Of a DNA stretch of 38,688 nucleotides, positions 2,020 through 20,829 are shown in pieces. Source of the DNA: Ruegeria sp. (GTDB lineage Bacteria; Pseudomonadota; Alphaproteobacteria; Rhodobacterales; Rhodobacteraceae); NCBI RefSeq assembly GCF_028066395.1, contig NZ_JALCBM010000006.1:45187-83874 (forward strand), read 5' to 3'. The position numbers and the translations under genes are program-made. Under the pieces are notes generated by a model that was not told where the DNA came from, ran no database searches, and was given only the letters and a program-made list of their open reading frames with translations. Each line of letters starts with the position of its first letter. The first letter of the stretch is position 1.

Positions 2020-2837
2020 CGGCGCGCATCCCAGCTTTTTGACACATGCTTGCGCGTGTAGAATTCGCCCAGCAGGCCGATCATGAGCAATATGATCCCG
2101 ACCCAAAGCGCGTATTCCCAACTGGAATTGCGCGGAAAATAGTTGCGAAAGACAAAGCCTCGGCATTGGTCGATGACGTGAAACAGCGGGTTCCAGGCAA
2201 ACATGGTCAGCATGAAACCGCCCAGCGCGTTGCCCACGAACATCTTGCCCGAAAACACCATGTTCAACCGTCGCCAGAGGTTGCTCAGAATGCTGGCCAC
2301 GCGGGGGAACCAGGGTGTCAGCGCCAGCAGGACCATCCCCACCGAACAGCCGGTGAACCACGCCAGAACCAGCATTGCGAAGGCTCCGCCGGGCTCTTGA
2401 ATCTCAATCGGGGCAACGGCGACGCTATAGACAAACAAGATCACCAGAATGGACACAAGCTGCGTGTACAACGACCCGAAGGCAGTCGCCATCAGCATCA
2501 CCATCATGTTCATCGGCGAATGCAGCATCATCGGGTTATTCCCCGCCCCCACCCCGGCAATGGCGCCCACTGCCTTGATGTGGGTAATGAACAGGAAAAT
2601 CCCCGACAGGATATACAGAATGAACTCTCCCCGGATCTTGGCGACCCGCGCGCCCATGAAGGACATGATCAGATAAAAAACCGAAGCGACCAGAATGATC
2701 TGGATGATGTTGATAATGATCGCCAGAACCGCATTGGAGTGCTGTGCCCGCACATTGCGCACCACCGCATGGAAGACCAGTTCGGCGGTGGTGAAGGCAC
2801 CGCCCAGCAGCGTTTGATTGCGCTTGTATTGAAACAC
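2016..2837 (-). CDS. ABC-2 type polysaccharide export permease (KpsM-like)
   Basis: Inner-membrane permease of an ABC-2 exporter, the class that carries capsule, O-antigen or other surface polysaccharide across the inner membrane. The product is 273 residues with about six hydrophobic segments separated by short loops. The second half (FSGKMFVGNALGG, then AWNPLFHVIDQCRGFVFRNYFP) has the pattern of KpsM/RfbA-type permeases, where a conserved Asn-Pro precedes a short re-entrant or periplasmic stretch. The start is GTG at 2837, with GGAAAG upstream on the minus strand. It is divergent from cysQ and the glycan cluster, so it probably exports what that cluster builds. No ATPase partner (KpsT-like) is in the window, which is unusual and means the ATPase must be encoded elsewhere. 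Substrate is inferred only from context. Confidence 0.85.
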   Translation of the reverse strand: MFQYKRNQTLLGGAFTTAELVFHAVVRNVRAQHSNAVLAIIINIIQIILVASVFYLIMSFMGARVAKIRGEFILYILSGIFLFITHIKAVGAIAGVGAGNNPMMLHSPMNMMVMLMATAFGSLYTQLVSILVILFVYSVAVAPIEIQEPGGAFAMLVLAWFTGCSVGMVLLALTPWFPRVASILSNLWRRLNMVFSGKMFVGNALGGFMLTMFAWNPLFHVIDQCRGFVFRNYFPRNSSWEYALWVGIILLMIGLLGEFYTRKHVSKSWDARR

Positions 2838-12270: not shown

Positions 12271-13509
12271 CTAATCTGATCGCTTGGCGGGGTTCAGGGT
12301 GAACCGCGCGGCAAGTTCGGTGTGTGACGACCATCGAAACTGGTCAACCACCTGTACCCATTCAAGGGTGTATCCCGCGTTAACCAGCGTTTTTGCGTCG
12401 CGGGCAAAGGTCACCGGGTTGCAGGACACATAGGCGATGACCGGGCGTTGCGCCTGTGCCAGTTCCTGCACCTGCGCCTCGGCCCCCGCGCGGGGCGGGT
12501 CCAGAACCACGGCGTCGAAGGATTTCAGCTCATCCGGCATCAGCGGACGGCGGAACAGGTCGCGCGCCTCGGTTGTCACGCGTTTCAGGCCCTGCGCTTT
12601 GCGCCAACCCTGATCCAAGGCATGGGTCATCGCGGCCTCGCCTTCAACGGCGTGGATTTCAGCATCTTGCGCCAAAGGCAAAGAGAACGTGCCGCATCCG
12701 GCAAACAGATCGACAATTCGCTTGGCACCCGCGATTGTCTCGGAAACAGCCTGTAATAGAGCCTGTTCTCCGTCCTTCGTCGCCTGCAAGAAAGCGCCGG
12801 GCGGAGGAATAACGGCGGCGGCTCCGAACTGCTGCGCAGGCGGGCGGCGCATGGCGATCACTTCGCCGTCCCAGCTGAGCCGCGCCAGCCCGTGTTTCTC
12901 GGTCGCTTGCGCCAGCGCCAATTCCAGCGGCCCGTCCAGCGGTTTGCCACCTTTCACCGCAACATCCAGCCCGGCCTCGGACAAAGTCAGGGTCACCGCC
13001 AGAACACCTTTGCGGCTGCCGCCAAGGACCGCCAGCGCCTCGGCCACCGGGATGGCGGCGATCAGGGCGGGGTCCAGCAGGTGGCAATCGGGGATTTCGG
13101 TGATGGTATCGGACGCCCGGCCATGAAATCCGGCCAATGTCCCCTTTTTCGTGCGCCGCACCGCGATTGTGGCCCGACGGCGCGAGCGTTCGGGCGAGGT
13201 ATGGATTGGCCGCATCGGCGCCTCCACCCCCTGCGCGGCCAGCGCGTTATGGACGATCTCAACCTTCCAATGCGCGACGAAATCGTCAGCGGCGTGCTGT
13301 AACTGGCAACCGCCGCAGGCTTTGTAATGGCGACAGGGCGCTTTCACCCGATGATCCGAAGGCGCCTGCACGCGGATATCGGTCAGAAGCGCATCGACCA
13401 ACGTACCACTCACCACCTCACCCGGCAGGGTGCGTGGGGCGTAAACCGGGCCGTCGGCGATGCCGTCGCCCTGATGCCCAAGGCGTTGAATGGTGAATTC
13501 CTGCGTCAT
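12271..13509 (-). CDS. RlmD/TrmA-family RNA (uracil-5-)-methyltransferase
   Basis: S-adenosylmethionine-dependent enzyme making 5-methyluridine in RNA, most like the 23S rRNA methyltransferase RlmD (RumA). The product has 412 residues. A short TRAM-like N-terminal part (FTIQRLGHQGDGIAD) is followed by the iron-sulfur cluster cysteines C59, C65, C68 (CRHYKACGGCQLQH) and C142. The methyltransferase domain has IVDLFAGCGTFSLPLA (265-280), DPPRAGA (337-343) and YVSCNPVTFARD with nucleophile C363. Which rRNA or tRNA position it modifies cannot be told from sequence; U1939 or U747 of 23S rRNA and tRNA U54 are the known alternatives. It lies just upstream of the sodium channel gene. Confidence 0.92.
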   Translation of the reverse strand: MTQEFTIQRLGHQGDGIADGPVYAPRTLPGEVVSGTLVDALLTDIRVQAPSDHRVKAPCRHYKACGGCQLQHAADDFVAHWKVEIVHNALAAQGVEAPMRPIHTSPERSRRRATIAVRRTKKGTLAGFHGRASDTITEIPDCHLLDPALIAAIPVAEALAVLGGSRKGVLAVTLTLSEAGLDVAVKGGKPLDGPLELALAQATEKHGLARLSWDGEVIAMRRPPAQQFGAAAVIPPPGAFLQATKDGEQALLQAVSETIAGAKRIVDLFAGCGTFSLPLAQDAEIHAVEGEAAMTHALDQGWRKAQGLKRVTTEARDLFRRPLMPDELKSFDAVVLDPPRAGAEAQVQELAQAQRPVIAYVSCNPVTFARDAKTLVNAGYTLEWVQVVDQFRWSSHTELAARFTLNPAKRSD

Positions 13510-13548: not shown

Positions 13549-15381
13549 TTATTCCGCCGCCTCGGTCTGAATGAAGCCACCGGACTGACGATGCCAGAAC
13601 CGCGCATAGAGGCCATTTTGCGCCAACAGCACCTCATGTGTGCCGTTTTCCACGATCCGCCCGTGATCCAGCACGATGATCCGGTCCATCTCGCTGAGCG
13701 TTGACAGTCGGTGCGCGATGGCCAGAACCGTCTTGCCTTCCATCACCCGATGCAAGGCGGTCTGGATCGCGGCCTCAACCTCGGAATCCAGGGCCGAGGT
13801 CGCCTCATCCAGTACCAGAATCGGCGCGTCCTTGAGGATGGCGCGGGCCAGTGCGATCCGCTGACGCTGTCCACCGCTCAGCTTGACGCCTCGTTCGCCC
13901 AGATGCGCGTCATAGCCGCTGCGCCCCTGCGCGTCCTGCAGACCAAGGATGAACTCATGCGCTTCGGCCTTTTGGGCGGCAGCGATCAGGGCGTCTTCAG
14001 TGGCATTCGGATTGCCATACAGGATGTTGTCGCGGGCCGAGCGGTTGAACATCGCGGTTTCCTGCGTGACCATCCCGATCTGACGGCGCAAACTGTCCTG
14101 CGTAACGGCCGAGACATCCTGACCATCAATCAAAACCGCGCCGTTTTCCCTGTCATAGAGCCGCAAAAGCAACGAAACCAGCGTCGATTTCCCCGCGCCA
14201 GATGCGCCGACGATCCCCAGCTTTTCACCCGGCTGGATGGTCAGGTCCAGATGCGAGACCCCACCGATATCGCGGCCATAGGCAAAGCTGACATCCTGAT
14301 AATCGATCTGTCCGTGCGGCACGCGCAGCTCTTGCGCGCCGGGCGTATCCTCGACCCGGTCGCGTTTGGTCAGGGTTTTCATGCCGTTTTCAACCTCACC
14401 CACATTGGCGTAAAGCCCCATGAGCGTGAAACTGACCCAGCCGGTCATCTGCGCGATACGGATGGACACGGCGCCCGCGGCGACGATATCGCCGGTGGTC
14501 GCCGACCCGGCCTGCCACAGCAGCAGCGTCGCGCCCAACAGCAACACGGGCAGGACCCCGGCAAGCACCATCAGGATGAACCGGAAGCTGGCCGACAGCT
14601 TACCGAATTCCAGCGACTTGTCGCGCAGATCGACCATGGAATCGCGCGCGGCCTGATCCTCGAACGCGGAATGGGCGAAGAGTTTGACGGTTTTTATATT
14701 GGTGATCGTATCGACCACCTGACCGGTCACCATCGCCCGCGCCCCGGCCCGCGCCGCCGAGCGTTTCCGAATGCGCGGCAGATACCAGCGGATCAGCAGG
14801 AAATAGACCACCAGCCAACCGGCAAAGGGCAGCATCACCAGCGGATGAATAGACCCTAACAAAAGCAAAGACCCGGCCAATGAGGCCAACGCAAACACAA
14901 TCGCGCTGATGGTTTCAGACACGACCGAGGTCAGCGCCGAGGAGGTCTGCATCTGTTTCTGTGCGATCCGCCCGGCGAAATCATCGTCGAAATAGGTCAC
15001 CGACTGGCCCAGCGTCCAGCGGTTCAGCTTGGCCAGAATCAAAGGCGGCAGGTTCGGCATGACGACATAGTTGTTCGACAGCGATGACAGCCCAAACAGC
15101 GCCGGGCGCAGCAGCATGAAGAACGCCACCGCGCCAAGGATCATCCACAGATTCCCACCCGCGAGAAACTGATCCGGCCCGCTGGCGGTGGCAATGTCAA
15201 TCACGCGGCCCAGTATCCACGCCGTTCCGGCCTCCATCACGCCCGCCGAGGCCGAAAAGAACGCGGCCACGAACAGCATCGGCCAGGACCCTGTCAGGCA
15301 CCAGCGAATAAACGCCCCCAGCGTTTGCGGCGGGGGCGTCTCGGTCGTTTTGAAGGGCTGGATCAGGTCGGCGATTCTCAT
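13549..15381 (-). CDS. ABC exporter half-transporter, second subunit of a pair
   Basis: Type I (ABCB-like) exporter with fused membrane and ATPase domains, 610 residues. About six transmembrane helices fill residues 30-330. The nucleotide-binding domain has Walker A GASGAGKST (around residue 390), Q-loop region MVTQET, signature LSGGQRQRIALARA, Walker B ILVLDEATSALDSE with the catalytic Glu, and H-loop IAHRLST. All catalytic motifs are intact. Its ATG overlaps the stop of the preceding exporter gene (ATGA, 15378-15381). The two are similar over most of their length, which points to a heterodimeric exporter of the lipid, multidrug or peptide kind. Substrate is not predictable. Expression is probably governed by the leader region at 17217-17350. 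Confidence 0.93.
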   Translation of the reverse strand: MRIADLIQPFKTTETPPPQTLGAFIRWCLTGSWPMLFVAAFFSASAGVMEAGTAWILGRVIDIATASGPDQFLAGGNLWMILGAVAFFMLLRPALFGLSSLSNNYVVMPNLPPLILAKLNRWTLGQSVTYFDDDFAGRIAQKQMQTSSALTSVVSETISAIVFALASLAGSLLLLGSIHPLVMLPFAGWLVVYFLLIRWYLPRIRKRSAARAGARAMVTGQVVDTITNIKTVKLFAHSAFEDQAARDSMVDLRDKSLEFGKLSASFRFILMVLAGVLPVLLLGATLLLWQAGSATTGDIVAAGAVSIRIAQMTGWVSFTLMGLYANVGEVENGMKTLTKRDRVEDTPGAQELRVPHGQIDYQDVSFAYGRDIGGVSHLDLTIQPGEKLGIVGASGAGKSTLVSLLLRLYDRENGAVLIDGQDVSAVTQDSLRRQIGMVTQETAMFNRSARDNILYGNPNATEDALIAAAQKAEAHEFILGLQDAQGRSGYDAHLGERGVKLSGGQRQRIALARAILKDAPILVLDEATSALDSEVEAAIQTALHRVMEGKTVLAIAHRLSTLSEMDRIIVLDHGRIVENGTHEVLLAQNGLYARFWHRQSGGFIQTEAAE

Positions 15382-17216
15382 TCCGCGGCCTCCGGGTTCA
15401 TGAAGCCCCCTGATTGCCGCGCCCAGAACTGCGCGTAAAGCCCACCCTGCGCCAGAAGGTCCGCATGGGCGCCTTCTTCGACAATGCGGCCCGCATCCAT
15501 CACCAGAATGCGATCCATCTGCGCAATGGTGCTGAGTCGGTGGGCAATGGCGATCACGGTCTTGCCTTGCATCATGCCGTACAGCGTCTCCTGAATCGAG
15601 GCTTCAACCTCGGAATCTAGGGCAGAGGTCGCTTCGTCCAGCAAAAGAATCGGCGCGTCCTTCAAGATCACCCGTGCCAGCGTCACCCGCTGCCGTTGGC
15701 CACCTGACAGTTTCACGCCCCGTTCACCCACATGCGCATCATAGCCGGTGCGCCCCTGCGGGTCCTGCAGGTCGAGGATGAACTCATGCGCCTCGGCCTG
15801 TTTGGCGGCGGCGATCATCTGATCCTCAGTCGCGTCGGGACGGCCATACAGGATGTTGTCACGGACCGAGCGGTGCAGCAGCGCGCTGTCCTGTTGGACC
15901 ATACCGATGTGGCTGCGCAGACTGTCCTGCGTGACCTGCGCGATGTTCTGCCCGTCGATCAGGATCGCACCGCGTTCCACGTCGTAGAACCGCAAAAGCA
16001 GCTTGACCAGGGTCGATTTCCCGGCCCCCGACCGCCCGATCAGGCCGATCTTTTCGCCCGGGTGAATCACCAGATTGATATGATCCAGCCCACCGGTTTC
16101 ACGACCGTAATGATGCGACAAATCGCAAACCTCAATCCGACCATCGGACAGGCGCAGGGGTTCAGATTCCGATGCATCCAGCAAGGTGATGGGCTGGGCG
16201 ATGGTCTCCATCCCCTCGGCCACGACGCCAAGCTGGCGGAAGAAACTGGTCAGCGCCCACATGATCCACCCGGTCATCGAGTTCAGCCGCAGCGTCAGCG
16301 CGGTGGCTGCCGCAACCACACCGACCGAGGCGCTGCCTTGCATCCATAGCGTAAAGGCCCAGCCGACAACGCCAATGATCAGCAGCCCGTTCAGTGTCAC
16401 CAGAACCGCGTCCATGATGGTGAAAATGCGCATCTCGATCTGGAAGGTCCGACGGGTTTCCTCGATCGCTTCGCGGGCATAATCCAGTTCCTGATCGGCA
16501 TGAGCGAACATCTTGACCGAATGGATGTTGGTATAGCTGTCCACCACCCGCCCCGTCACGGTCGAGCGCGCATCGGACGCGGCCTTTGAGGCTGGGCCGA
16601 CCCGCTGCACCGTCCAGCGCACCAGCAGGGCGTAAAGCGCAAACCAGATCAGCAACGGCAGCAGCAGACGCGGGTCCGCCGCCATCAACAGGATCGCCGC
16701 CCCGATCAAATAGGCCAGCGAGAATGAGATCGCGTCGAAGACCTGAAACACCACCTCACCCGCAGCGGGCGGGGTCTGCATGATCCGGTTGGCGATGCGC
16801 CCGGCAAAGTCATTTTCGAACCAGCCAACCGATTGACGCAACACCTGTTTATGCGCCCGCCAGCGGATCAGCGTGCCGACATTGGGCAGGATCGCGTTGT
16901 TGAGCAACAGCACATCGACCACATGCAGCAAGGGCCGCAGCACCAGAATGAACGCCGCCATCAGCAACAGTTCTGTCCCGTGCGCCTGCCAGACCTGCGC
17001 CGGAGTACCACTCAGCAAGTCCACGACGCGGCCCATATAGTAGATCAGGCCGATCTCGACCCCGGCCACGATGATGGAAATCAGCCCTGTCCAGAAAAAG
17101 ACGCGGTAAAACGGCCGGCAATAATCCAGCATGAAGGGCCACAGCCGCGTGGGCGGCGCGTCGACCTCATCATAGGCAACAAAGGGGTCTACAAGGTTTT
17201 CGAAATAGCGAAACAT
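15378..17216 (-). CDS. ABC exporter half-transporter, first subunit of a pair
   Basis: Type I exporter subunit of 612 residues, paralogous to the next gene. The membrane domain carries about six helices (for example FFWTGLISIIVAGVEIGLIYY near residue 45). The ATPase domain has Walker A GRSGAGKST (around residue 395), signature LSGGQRQRVTLARV, Walker B ILLLDEATSALDSE and IAHRLST. Both subunits keep canonical residues, so both composite ATP sites of a heterodimer would be catalytic, unlike BmrCD-type exporters with one degenerate site. CCGGAG lies six bases before ATG 17216 as ribosome site. Upstream, on the same strand, sit a short leader ORF (17303-17335) and a hairpin (17270-17296), which together suggest attenuation control. 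Confidence 0.93.
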   Translation of the reverse strand: MFRYFENLVDPFVAYDEVDAPPTRLWPFMLDYCRPFYRVFFWTGLISIIVAGVEIGLIYYMGRVVDLLSGTPAQVWQAHGTELLLMAAFILVLRPLLHVVDVLLLNNAILPNVGTLIRWRAHKQVLRQSVGWFENDFAGRIANRIMQTPPAAGEVVFQVFDAISFSLAYLIGAAILLMAADPRLLLPLLIWFALYALLVRWTVQRVGPASKAASDARSTVTGRVVDSYTNIHSVKMFAHADQELDYAREAIEETRRTFQIEMRIFTIMDAVLVTLNGLLIIGVVGWAFTLWMQGSASVGVVAAATALTLRLNSMTGWIMWALTSFFRQLGVVAEGMETIAQPITLLDASESEPLRLSDGRIEVCDLSHHYGRETGGLDHINLVIHPGEKIGLIGRSGAGKSTLVKLLLRFYDVERGAILIDGQNIAQVTQDSLRSHIGMVQQDSALLHRSVRDNILYGRPDATEDQMIAAAKQAEAHEFILDLQDPQGRTGYDAHVGERGVKLSGGQRQRVTLARVILKDAPILLLDEATSALDSEVEASIQETLYGMMQGKTVIAIAHRLSTIAQMDRILVMDAGRIVEEGAHADLLAQGGLYAQFWARQSGGFMNPEAAE

Positions 17217-17269
17217 GGGGTGCTCCGGATTGAGCTGAAAATAGGACGTGCGAAGAAAGATGGTGCCAA

Positions 17270-17296
17270 AACACCACCCCTACGGGTTAAGGTGTT
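17270..17296 (-). promoter_or_regulatory. Attenuator-like hairpin ahead of the ABC exporter genes
   Basis: On the minus strand, AACACC (17296-17291) pairs with GGTGTT (17275-17270). Inside it ACCC (17287-17284) pairs with GGGT (17279-17276) around a four-base loop, with a three-base TTA bulge on one side, making ten base pairs in all. The 3' arm runs into a short T run (GTGTTTTGG). An alternative small stem GGTG (17275-17272) with CACC (17265-17262) would compete for the 3' arm. The 5' arm begins six bases after the leader ORF stop codon, so a ribosome held near that stop would mask it. The T run is short, so termination rather than translational control is uncertain. Confidence 0.5.
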
Positions 17297-17302
17297 CAGG
17301 CT

Positions 17303-17335
17303 TTAGCCGAACCAGATCCCGTAAAACATTCGCAT
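17303..17335 (-). CDS. Putative 10-residue leader peptide of the ABC exporter operon
   Basis: A complete short reading frame, ATG at 17335 to TAA at 17305-17303, encodes MRMFYGIWFG. It is preceded by a strong ribosome site, GGAGGG at 17345-17340, five bases before the ATG counting from GGAGG. The peptide is rich in aromatic residues (F, Y, W, F). It lies about 90 bases upstream of the first exporter ATG and just before an attenuator-like hairpin. The combination resembles ribosome-sensed leaders such as bmrB, which controls the heterodimeric exporter BmrCD in Bacillus. Translation is inferred from the ribosome site and geometry alone. A weak upstream promoter match (ATGACA at 17388-17383, GATAGG at 17366-17361) could drive the leader. 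Confidence 0.55.
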   Translation of the reverse strand: MRMFYGIWFG

Positions 17336-17407
17336 CGTTCCCTCCATGTAACAGGGGCACCCTATCCACAAACGATCCGGTTTGTCATCCCCTTTTGAGA
17401 CTTAATT

Positions 17408-18562
17408 TCACTTGGCCAGCAATTCCTTGCGCGTCAGGGCAAAACCGGATGCGATCCACTGCGCCTCAAGTTCGGCCAGTTTGCGGCCCAGCGCAGGCCC
17501 CGAGAAATCCGGGATCAGGTCCGCCGCACGGATCGGAAAACTGGCCGCCGCGCCGCGCTTCAGGTCTTTGGTCAGGTCGTCGGACCAGGGGGTTTCGAAA
17601 AAGGCGTGGCGTAGCAGGGTTTCGTTCAACCCCCCTTCGGACCCGTTGCGATAGCCCAGTTCCGCAATGCTGGCGGGTCCGGTGGCTTCGTCCCGCATAC
17701 GGGTCAGGCGTTGCATCTGGGCGCGGCTCAGGCGCAAGGTGGCGGCGGCCTCGGGCGGGGCAATTGCGGCCAGACGGCGCACCGGATCGGGTGCTGCACC
17801 CGCATCCTGTTCCAGTTGGATCAGGACAGCCAACGCCGTGTCATCCGCACCCGGCAGAACCTGTGCCAGTACCCCCGCGCTGCGCATCGCCGCGACCGAG
17901 GGCGCCGGATCAGGCGCACCCAACAGCTTTAACAACTCAGCCCCGACACGTTCGCGCGACAGGGCCTGCAACCCATCCAGCGTGCTGGCGATGGCGGCCA
18001 GTGCGTCGGGGTCAAACCCGGCATCCGCATCGCCATACCAGGCGTGAAAGCGGAAATAGCGCAACGTGCGCAGGTAATCCTCGCGAATGCGGTCCTCGGC
18101 CCGCCCAATGAACCGAACCCGGCGGGCCTGAAGATCGGGCAGCCCGCCCAGCGGGTCCAGGATTGAACCATCGGGCCGGGCATAAAGCGCGTTCACGGTG
18201 AAATCGCGGCGGGCGGCGTCTTCTTCGACCTTGTCGGAATAGGCGACAACGGCGCGGCGACCGTCGGTTTCCACATCGCGGCGAAAGGTGGTGACCTCAT
18301 GCGGGATACCATGGCTGACGATGGTGACGGTGCCGTGGTCGATGCCGGTGGGAACCGGTTTCAGCCCCGCCGCCTGCGCCAGTTCCATCACCCGTTCGGG
18401 TCGCGCATCGGTGGCAATGTCGATGTCCGAGACTGGCGCACCCAGCAGCGCATTGCGCACGCATCCGCCCACAAACAGGGCCTGCGCCCCGGCATCGGTC
18501 AACGCTGCGCAGACCTTTTGCGTCGGCTCTGCCGTGATCCAGTCTTCAGTGATCCGCCTCAT
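17408..18562 (-). CDS. cca: tRNA CCA-adding enzyme / poly(A) polymerase family nucleotidyltransferase
   Basis: Class II nucleotidyltransferase that adds or repairs the 3' CCA of tRNA. The product has 384 residues. The catalytic head has LFVGGCVRNALLG (29-41) and the metal-binding D46-x-D48 in SDIDIATDARPE, followed by HGTVTI and the template-forming block DFTVNALYARPDG and RFIGRAEDRIREDYLRTLRYFRF. The C-terminal part is alpha-helical without an obvious HD domain. In alphaproteobacteria this family mostly serves as CCA tRNA nucleotidyltransferase. Its ATG overlaps the stop of the Nudix gene by four bases, so it is translated with the Hsp33-Nudix genes upstream. The tRNA-Thr in this window already encodes CCA, so repair may be the main role for at least that tRNA. 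Confidence 0.92.
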   Translation of the reverse strand: MRRITEDWITAEPTQKVCAALTDAGAQALFVGGCVRNALLGAPVSDIDIATDARPERVMELAQAAGLKPVPTGIDHGTVTIVSHGIPHEVTTFRRDVETDGRRAVVAYSDKVEEDAARRDFTVNALYARPDGSILDPLGGLPDLQARRVRFIGRAEDRIREDYLRTLRYFRFHAWYGDADAGFDPDALAAIASTLDGLQALSRERVGAELLKLLGAPDPAPSVAAMRSAGVLAQVLPGADDTALAVLIQLEQDAGAAPDPVRRLAAIAPPEAAATLRLSRAQMQRLTRMRDEATGPASIAELGYRNGSEGGLNETLLRHAFFETPWSDDLTKDLKRGAAASFPIRAADLIPDFSGPALGRKLAELEAQWIASGFALTRKELLAK

Positions 18563-19158
18563 TCACTCATCCGCGCTGCCAGCCCCCGCAGAATGCGCGC
18601 CGTTGCACCCCAGATGTAATAGGGGCCGTAGGGCACGGCGAAGTAATACCGTCTCTGCCCACGCCACCGGCGCGATTCGACCACATAATTCGCCGGGTTC
18701 AGCACATGCGCAAGCGGAACCGAAAAAACCTCGTCCACTTCGCCCGGTTCCGGGATCGGATCAAAGCCGTCTTCAATCACCGCCACCACCGGAGTGACCG
18801 AAAACGAGGTCACCGTTTCATGAACCGGCAGATGGCCCAGAATTCGCGGCAGATCAGAGGGCAGGCCGATCTCTTCCCGTGCCTCGCGCAAGGCTGCAGC
18901 GGTGACATCGGCATCCGTTTCGTCCTGTTTGCCGCCCGGAAACGCGATCTGACCGGGGTGGTGTTTCAACGCTGATGAGCGTTTGGTCAGGATCACCCGA
19001 GGCTGCGCATCGACCAGCGAAACAGGCACTAACACGCCGGCAGAGCGCAATTTCCGCCCCGCTGGCAGATCGACATCCGGGTTCAGATCGAAATCGCTGG
19101 ACCCGGTGCCGGGGCGGCGCAGGGCCGCCGTCAGCTGTTGGACAATGTCACGCGCCAT
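18559..19158 (-). CDS. Nudix hydrolase, CoA pyrophosphatase (NudL/YeaB-like)
   Basis: Probable hydrolase of coenzyme A and its derivatives to phosphopantetheine and 3',5'-ADP. The product is 199 residues from ATG 19158. The UPF0035 family start is visible: VILTKRSSALKHHPGQIAFPGGKQD. The Nudix box GGKQDETDADVTAAALREAR continues into EEIGL, with the REx2EE glutamates intact. The frame is open further upstream inside hslO, but the chosen ATG gives normal family length and an 11-base overlap with hslO. The stop overlaps the cca start by four bases. The three genes form an hslO-nudix-cca operon. CoA specificity is taken from family resemblance, not tested here. Confidence 0.88.
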   Translation of the reverse strand: MARDIVQQLTAALRRPGTGSSDFDLNPDVDLPAGRKLRSAGVLVPVSLVDAQPRVILTKRSSALKHHPGQIAFPGGKQDETDADVTAAALREAREEIGLPSDLPRILGHLPVHETVTSFSVTPVVAVIEDGFDPIPEPGEVDEVFSVPLAHVLNPANYVVESRRWRGQRRYYFAVPYGPYYIWGATARILRGLAARMSE

Positions 19159-20753: not shown

Positions 20754-20829
20754 GCCTCAATAGCTCAGCTGGTAGAGCAGGTCCTTCGTAAGGACAAGGT
20801 CGGGGGTTCGAGTCCCTCTTGAGGCACCA
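20754..20829 (+). tRNA. tRNA-Thr (anticodon CGT), CCA encoded
   Basis: A full cloverleaf can be drawn. The acceptor stem is GCCTCAA (20754-20760) with TTGAGGC (20819-20825), followed by discriminator A and an encoded CCA (20827-20829). The D arm is GCTC/GAGC around AGCTGGTA. The anticodon arm has loop TTCGTAA (20785-20791) with anticodon CGT (20787-20789), reading the Thr codon ACG. The T arm has stem GGGGG/CCCTC and loop TTCGAGT. The anticodon stem GGTCC/GGACA has a G-A opposition at its outermost pair (20780 and 20796). No flanking terminator hairpin was recognised. Confidence 0.95.

Follow-up and report, generated by a model that had tools for sequence, protein, structure and literature searches.

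A candidate translational attenuator, with a conserved leader reading frame and two alternative RNA folds, ahead of an ABC exporter in Rhodobacteraceae

The 191-base gap between a CCA tRNA nucleotidyltransferase gene (17408-18562, minus strand) and two ABC exporter genes in the window (the whole 38,688-nt stretch of Ruegeria sp. DNA that was analysed) holds a leader that is probably a translational attenuator: a ribosome that dwells on its short ORF would release the exporter start site. This reading is built on comparison with related leaders and on calculated folding. The comparison bears out the conservation of the ORF, two long-range helices (P0 and P1), the outer part of a hairpin (AH) and a promoter-like motif and, by smaller margins, the helices P2 and P3. 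The first-pass annotation of this DNA had proposed a ribosome-sensed attenuator here; a conserved ORF, a hairpin and its competitor ahead of the exporter pair, and covarying alternative folds were indeed found, whereas a BmrB-like terminator and the partial likeness to an arrest motif were not supported. The genes and signals of the locus are as follows.

15378..17216, minus strand: ABC exporter subunit 1 (612 aa)
13549..15381, minus strand: ABC exporter subunit 2 (610 aa), with a 4-base overlap with subunit 1
12271..13509, minus strand: RlmD-like 23S rRNA m5U methyltransferase, the next same-strand gene after the exporter pair
17303..17335, minus strand: leader ORF from the first ATG (MRMFYGIWFG), from the sequence and as drawn in the first-pass annotation
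17303..17329, minus strand: leader ORF with the start codon conserved in the family (MFYGIWFG, 8 codons and TAA), from 94 leaders with a conservation block over codons 1-6
17341..17345, minus strand: leader Shine-Dalgarno sequence GGAGG, from the sequence
17383..17388, minus strand: -35-like hexamer (ATGACA) of a promoter predicted before the leader
17359..17364, minus strand: -10-like hexamer (TAGGGT) after an 18-nt spacer, from a TA pattern and the sequence

The exporter ATG lies at 17216 (codon 17216-17214, minus strand) and has its own Shine-Dalgarno sequence, GGAG at 17226-17223, as had been noted before. Heterodimeric exporters of the BmrCD type have one degenerate nucleotide-binding site. 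Here the Walker A and LSGGQ motifs, the Walker B Glu and the His are canonical in the nucleotide-binding domains of both subunits, and by sequence the pair are ordinary type IV ABC exporters. Their top-scoring solved chains are those of plant ABCB19 and P-glycoprotein-type proteins. Nor does the likeness to BmrCD extend to four relatives (L058, L062, L070 and L072) in which the leader is present but only one ABC gene was detected, directly followed by the methyltransferase gene; given these loci, the switch may not depend on an exporter pair. For the methyltransferase gene, RlmD models are the best NCBIfam matches yet score under their curated cut-offs, and the name RlmD-like is therefore provisional. 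A match to it lies downstream of the exporter in 71 of 80 orthologous loci, some of the other nine being cut short. Elsewhere in the window, positions 2121-2273 (plus strand) match the Ruegeria cis2 sRNA in Rfam (RF02645, 70.4 bits), described in R. pomeroyi as antisense to an ABC transporter permease gene (PMC4809877), and a tRNA-Thr (CGT) gene, the sole tRNA found in the window, lies at 20754-20829 (plus strand).

A search with exporter subunit 1 gave 586 relatives, and the best 80 loci were analysed; the ORF pattern stands ahead of the exporter in 65 of these and is missing from 15, a few having a diverged short ORF instead. Five loci (L063, L068, L074, L076 and L077, three of them titled Marivita) have no ORF and share another conserved upstream stretch, GGACAAYACCGAACATTG, which is perhaps another regulator. 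At the DNA level, a search pattern for MY-x-GIW had matches in 31 of 295 family genomes (roughly one genome for each genus) and, when reversed, in none. Thirty of the 31 matching loci were examined (G294 was left out), and in 28 the match lies ahead of the exporter, L087 and L111 being without one. In a sample of the class, a stricter pattern matched 2 of 240 genomes, both in the family of the window and none elsewhere. With TTT at codon 2, the window's own genome escapes these patterns; the leader is present there in a single copy. The window and 93 related leaders formed a set of 94, several nearly identical, which was thinned to 44 nonredundant leaders, or 47 distinct segments for the test of P1. 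Two alignments, A1 (31 leaders) and A2 (32), were chosen by eye for alignability, a choice that favours structured members, and were further thinned to 18 and 24 sequences respectively.

The ORF MRMFYGIWFG of the first-pass annotation is present at 17335-17303 with its GGAGG at 17345-17341 and a TAA stop at 17305-17303 (all minus strand). The start drawn there is a possible one in the window, but it is not that of the family. GGAGG precedes the second ATG by 7 nt in 66 of the 94 leaders and by 8 nt in 17, and an in-frame ATG at -6, found in 45, is mostly too near GGAGG; to judge by these leaders, the family start codon of the ORF is the second ATG (17329). In the window GGAGG lies 11 nt before the second ATG and 5 nt before the first, and owing to this longer spacer the first ATG may also be usable.

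The peptide core across the 94 leaders is M-Y-x-G-I-W. Codons 2 (TAT 85, TAC 4, TTT 3, AGA 1, CAT 1), 4 (GGG 88, GGA 3, GGT 2, GAT 1), 5 (ATC 80, ATT 12, CTC 2) and 6 (TGG 92, CGG 2) are near-invariant, with third-base changes of the coding type. Apart from the first two bases of codon 3, positions between the ATG and the end of codon 6 are highly conserved, and conservation drops sharply before the ATG and at codon 7; the C-terminus of the peptide varies freely. By this comparison the short ORF, with its ribosome site, is conserved as a coding sequence, and it is presumably translated. In exporter genes from 46 loci Tyr is encoded by TAT in 61% of cases and Gly by GGG in 25%, so the leader preference for GGG exceeds normal usage; pairing in P2 can account for it, and the evidence at the level of the peptide is therefore strongest for Ile5 and Trp6.

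The residue at codon 3 (17323-17321 in the window) varies (Y 55, R 20, H 14, C 2, L 1, F 1, Q 1), and its nucleotides follow a pyrimidine-purine-pyrimidine pattern (TAC, CAC, CGC, CGT, TGC) in 91 of 94 leaders, for which neither the amino acid nor P2 alone accounts. A partial likeness to the arrest motif FxxYxIWPP had been pointed out; the Tyr at that spacing falls on this variable codon 3, the conserved Tyr being codon 2. An arrest peptide of the FxxYxIWPP type was rejected on this ground; nor does a Pro-Pro follow in the leader peptides. The ORF has 8 codons in 61 leaders, 10 in 32 and 9 in one. Inspected by eye, the 3' ends of the leader ORFs have their stop codon in or just past a small hairpin, P2a. 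The length of the ORF may be set by RNA structure.

The leader transcript is predicted to have its own promoter. A -35-like hexamer lies within -80 to -45 of the leader ATG in 91 of 94 leaders, at -67 to -55 in 89, compared with 6 of 94 in a reversed-sequence control, and a TA follows 16-18 nt past it in 38 of 44 nonredundant leaders. This pattern was picked after inspection of the leader sequences, and a scan for consensus promoters found none. Transcription would start some 22-25 nt ahead of the leader ATG, which would put the 5' arm of P0 close to where the transcript begins. Transcription from downstream of 17303, which had been named as evidence against the attenuator, is unlikely given this promoter-like motif upstream of the leader. 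A BmrB-like terminator was not supported: a scan of 17000-18700 gave one terminator-like site where shuffles averaged 1.6, and inspection by eye showed no U-tract shared across the lineages. A U-rich run follows P3 in the window and its near relatives, where a weak terminator is possible.

The structural elements referred to from here on are these.

17344..17349, minus strand: P0 5' arm (ACAUGG), reaching into the leader Shine-Dalgarno sequence; MFE, covariation
17213..17218, minus strand: P0 3' arm (CCAUGU), containing the exporter start codon 17216-17214; MFE, covariation
17329..17342, minus strand: P1 5' arm (GGGA, CG, UGCGAA); MFE, covariation
17243..17254, minus strand: P1 3' arm (UUCGCA, CG, UCCU); MFE, covariation
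17318..17324, minus strand: P2 5' arm (UUACGGG), inside codons 2-4; MFE, covariation
17280..17286, minus strand: P2 3' arm (CCCGUAG); MFE, covariation
17258..17279, minus strand: P3 hairpin, its 5' arm shared with the AH 3' arm; covariation
17270..17296, minus strand: AH, a ten-pair alternative hairpin (AACACC/GGUGUU, ACCC/GGGU); covariation
17222..17235, minus strand: P4, a small hairpin (GCUC..GAGC) over the exporter Shine-Dalgarno sequence; permissive search

The minimum free energy of a 141-nt stretch is -46.6 against -39.0 for shuffles, a modest z of -2.1; the comparison between leaders is what decides the matter. Covariation was assessed by comparing the pairing of true partners with that of partners swapped between species. 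For P0 the mean pairing energy of a leader with its own partner was -9.25 kcal/mol compared with -7.74 when permuted (44 sequences), and 0 of 20000 permutations were as low. Uninterrupted P0 helices of at least 7 pairs occur in 16 of 44 leaders (permuted mean 6.3; 0 of 5000 as high) and of at least 8 pairs in 7 of 44, a weak excess that 44 of 5000 permutations reach. The first test of P1, with a wide 3' window, gave -14.3 for own and -13.5 for cross pairing with a mean rank of 0.40; this signal was diluted because of P3 and P4, and a narrower window was then used, with which 1 of 10000 permutations was equally good (47 distinct leader segments). P1 helices of at least 7 uninterrupted pairs are seen in 32 of 44 leaders (permuted mean 20.5; none of 5000 as high); at 5 pairs all 44 have one, but 742 of 5000 permutations equal that. 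The permutation controls leave some relatedness in place, against which the best safeguard is comparison with other windows from the same sequences: in a scan of 672 window pairs, with an all-window standard deviation of 1.6, P0 and P1 stood out as two strong islands, each with z -7.2.

Helices from other leaders illustrate the exchange of bases in P0, for example UAACGGAUG/CAUCCGUUA in L021, UGUCGG/CCGACA in L048 and AUGACGG/CCGUCAU in L047 (all as RNA). The P0 of the window is short, with 6 pairs in the MFE structure, and some lineages (L059, L064) have a weak P0 or none; P1 uses two registers. RNAalifold on the MAFFT alignment A1 returned 6 weak pairs at -2.3 kcal/mol, which we think is because P0 and P1 slide in register between lineages. 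P0 is predicted to be the RNA helix that covers the exporter start region; this role falls to a long-range helix with the leader's own ribosome site and not to the hairpin after the ORF. P4 is found as some hairpin in 81 of 94 leaders by the permissive search, with non-significant covariation (z -1.4 in A1, -0.3 in the A2 scan). Rfam has no gathering-level match over the leader; its lone match there, to a snoRNA (E 1.7), is on the opposite strand and far under the gathering score.

The hairpin itself is AH, in which AACACC at 17296-17291 pairs with GGUGUU at 17275-17270 and ACCC at 17287-17284 with GGGU at 17279-17276. It begins at 17296, six bases past the stop codon as described in the first-pass annotation, and GTGTTTTGG is present after it, also as described; the competing GGTG/CACC stem is P3, which covaries as an alternative to AH. 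AH excludes P2, whose pairing it crosses, and P3, with which it has its 3' arm in common. In the A2 scan (24 of 32 sequences, 561 column-window pairs, standard deviation 1.5) AH ranked first with z -6.4, followed by P1 (-6.3), P0 (-5.4), P2 (-4.5) and P3 (-4.3). The short ORF, in 65 of 80 orthologous loci, and the hairpin, whose conservation had been put forward as the check on the proposal, are both kept. The covariation of AH is carried by its outer part, the inner-part window having z -1.2. The A1 test (18 of 31 sequences) gave -2.9 for AH, -3.7 for P3, -2.8 for P2 and -3.0 for P2a, with two control pairs near 0. Relatedness inflates these z values, as the scan standard deviation of about 1.5 shows. 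The covariation is strong for P0, P1 and outer AH, and suggestive for P2 and P3 and for the values from A1. Taken together, the alignments point to two mutually exclusive conserved folds, AH (in its outer part) on the one hand and P2 with P3 on the other.

The position of AH relative to the leader start is close to fixed. When the sequence beyond +32 was folded up to the end of the AH 3' arm, a hairpin formed in 32 of 32 leaders, with a mean of -10.2 kcal/mol, and it began at +33 to +37 in 30 of the 32, with a median of +34; +1 to +32 were masked, so +33 is the minimum possible. Folded from +25, 21 of 32 leaders begin AH at +33 to +37. Masking to +38, as by a ribosome at codon 8, weakened AH to -5.9 on average. 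The footprint of a ribosome reaches about 15-17 nt beyond the first base in the P site; in these models, AH begins just past the stretch that a ribosome would be expected to cover while codon 6 is in its P site. The end of conservation at codon 6 and the start of AH near +34 fit together well in the leaders compared. Modelled at intermediate transcript lengths, the folds compete closely. If the transcript ends after segment 3, AH outweighs P2 in 18 of 32 leaders when the ORF is free and forms at least 3 pairs in 24 of 32 when it is occupied. Once the rest of P3 (segment 3') is added, P2 exceeds AH in 24 of 32 leaders with a free ORF, and with a masked ORF AH exceeds P3 in only 8 of 32; AH would therefore need to form early, by kinetics.

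The effect of a ribosome on the exporter start was calculated by masking. With the whole leader folded, the exporter start is unpaired to 0.34 on average over 44 leaders. A ribosome mask at codon 1 raises this to 0.46 (higher in 31 of 44, p 1.9e-4) and one at codon 2 to 41% (27 of 44, p 0.003); removal of the P0 5' arm gives 0.52 (higher in 33 of 44). Masks at codons 3-8 did not open the exporter start in static folding (0.32-0.34 vs 0.34), and in 23 selected leaders, calculated with the P0 5' arm left out, the openness of the Shine-Dalgarno sequence was unchanged on stalling (0.52 vs 0.52). The computed release therefore works for ribosomes held at the leader start, where masks at codons 1 and 2 open the exporter start.

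These results suggest the following switch. In the OFF state the 5' end of the transcript and the leader Shine-Dalgarno sequence would pair with the exporter start codon in P0, the leader start would pair with the distal arm in P1, and P2 and P3 would complete a three-way junction, so that the leader and exporter start sites would both be covered. In the ON state a ribosome dwelling on the leader would keep P0, P1 and their companion helices open. At the leader start codon it would do so by direct masking of P0 and P1. A ribosome paused while W6 is in its P site would mask P2 and leave AH free to form, to the exclusion of P2 and P3; to lead from there to the release of P0 would need a co-transcriptional order of events or a clash between ribosome and P1. 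We infer the assignment of OFF and ON from the folds, and an open start would raise exporter synthesis. The signal is likely to be translation stress, either a compound that acts on the ribosome or a slow reading of the conserved codons. A more detailed proposal is offered tentatively, as a possibility that we consider doubtful in its full form: the leader may represent an as yet undescribed class of ribosome sensor in which the 5' end with the leader ribosome site is antisense to the exporter start codon, each silencing the other, with two inputs, ribosomes at the leader start that open P0 and P1 and ribosomes held at W6 by YxGIW that set the switch between AH and P2 with P3. Such a sensor would allow these Rhodobacteraceae to tie an exporter and an rRNA methyltransferase to assaults on the ribosome.

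The same observations can be read in other ways. The leader RNA and ORF could act without any sensing, either to make the mRNA more stable or to supply the exporter with ribosomes that reinitiate. Helices at the 5' end can stabilise mRNAs, and P0 would form one where the transcript is predicted to begin; reinitiation at leader peptides has likewise been proposed in print (PMC4833913). The distance from leader ATG to exporter ATG, however, is 99-150 nt (median 114), which is long for reinitiation, the pairing reaches over the exporter start, and two exclusive folds covary; a constitutive structure is an unlikely explanation. An amino-acid attenuator, in which scarce charged tRNA-Trp (or tRNA-Tyr) would pause the ribosome at codon 6 (or 2) and turn the exporter on, would agree with the retention of Trp at codon 6 in 92 of 94 leaders and Tyr at codon 2 in 89 of 94, and with an AH that lies just past the footprint of a ribosome at codon 6. 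Classical attenuators, however, carry tandem repeats of the regulatory codons, and here these are absent and the Trp codon is single. Furthermore, Gly4 and Ile5 are about as tightly kept as Trp6, and an exporter is an odd target for amino-acid scarcity, so that we regard this as quite improbable.

It is also conceivable that the peptide is the product, either as cargo of the transporter next to it or as a trans-acting factor in the manner of peTrpL. The conserved hydrophobic core MYxGIW beside an exporter would suit such a role, and a trans-acting leader peptide reported in Sinorhizobium provides a precedent (PMC7298713); nevertheless the free variation of the C-terminus speaks against it, the pairing of the RNA with the exporter start points to a role in cis, and we consider it very unlikely. 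A ligand-binding riboswitch whose conserved block merely resembles an ORF would explain a conserved multi-helix RNA with alternative folds, but not why that block runs from ATG to codon 6 with synonymous third-base changes, nor why GGAGG lies 7-8 nt upstream in 83 of 94 leaders and the frame closes after 8-10 codons; this, too, has very little probability.

If the attenuator reading is right, a ribosome-sensing exporter switch would be common to many genera of one alphaproteobacterial family, and ribosome-targeting compounds would be sensed without a regulatory protein. Co-regulation of the methyltransferase with a ribosome-sensing leader would make sense. The leader also offers a new short candidate arrest peptide, and sharp predictions follow from two mutually covering start sites and an AH at a near-fixed distance from the leader start. 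A literature search on the peptide strings gave no match, and in a search for such leaders no description was recognised in the titles and abstract beginnings of the matches listed. Among the matching passages of the survey of Ruegeria pomeroyi sRNAs none describes such a leader, and the word "leader" occurs 0 times in its main text (PMC4809877).

Several known systems resemble the proposed switch in part, and the leader shares with the ermC and ermB translational attenuators a choice between alternative hairpins that would be decided by a stalled leader ribosome, the output being translation of the next gene. In those attenuators the covering helix is local, whereas here it would reach from the exporter start codon to the 5' end predicted for the transcript. 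The MsrDL leader peptide begins Met-Tyr, as do most of the leader peptides described here, and is otherwise unrelated to them. Like MsrDL, the present leader would encode a peptide read by the ribosome; MsrDL is described as stalling on the drug-bound ribosome and working by blocking a Rho-independent terminator, a different mode (PMC10314930). With bmrB/bmrCD of Bacillus subtilis it has in common a leader ORF before a two-gene ABC exporter. The account of bmrB places an intrinsic terminator and an anti-terminator within a gene of 162 nt (PMC4191407); here there is no convincing terminator, the ORF has 8 codons, and occlusion of the exporter start is predicted instead. The nearest to the proposed mode of action is the toiL uORF that controls topAI in Escherichia coli (PMC12121999). 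It is described as an experimentally studied uORF for which release is proposed when ribosomes stall, the start codon included, and several drugs are said to stall ribosomes at that codon (PMC12121999). In both cases a short uORF would lie inside a structure that covers the downstream ribosome site. The bacteria, the peptide and the target all differ from those described for toiL; the best-supported contacts in the present leader are between its Shine-Dalgarno region and the exporter start codon and between its start and the distal arm, and in these leaders a second fold, AH, appears to be conserved as well.
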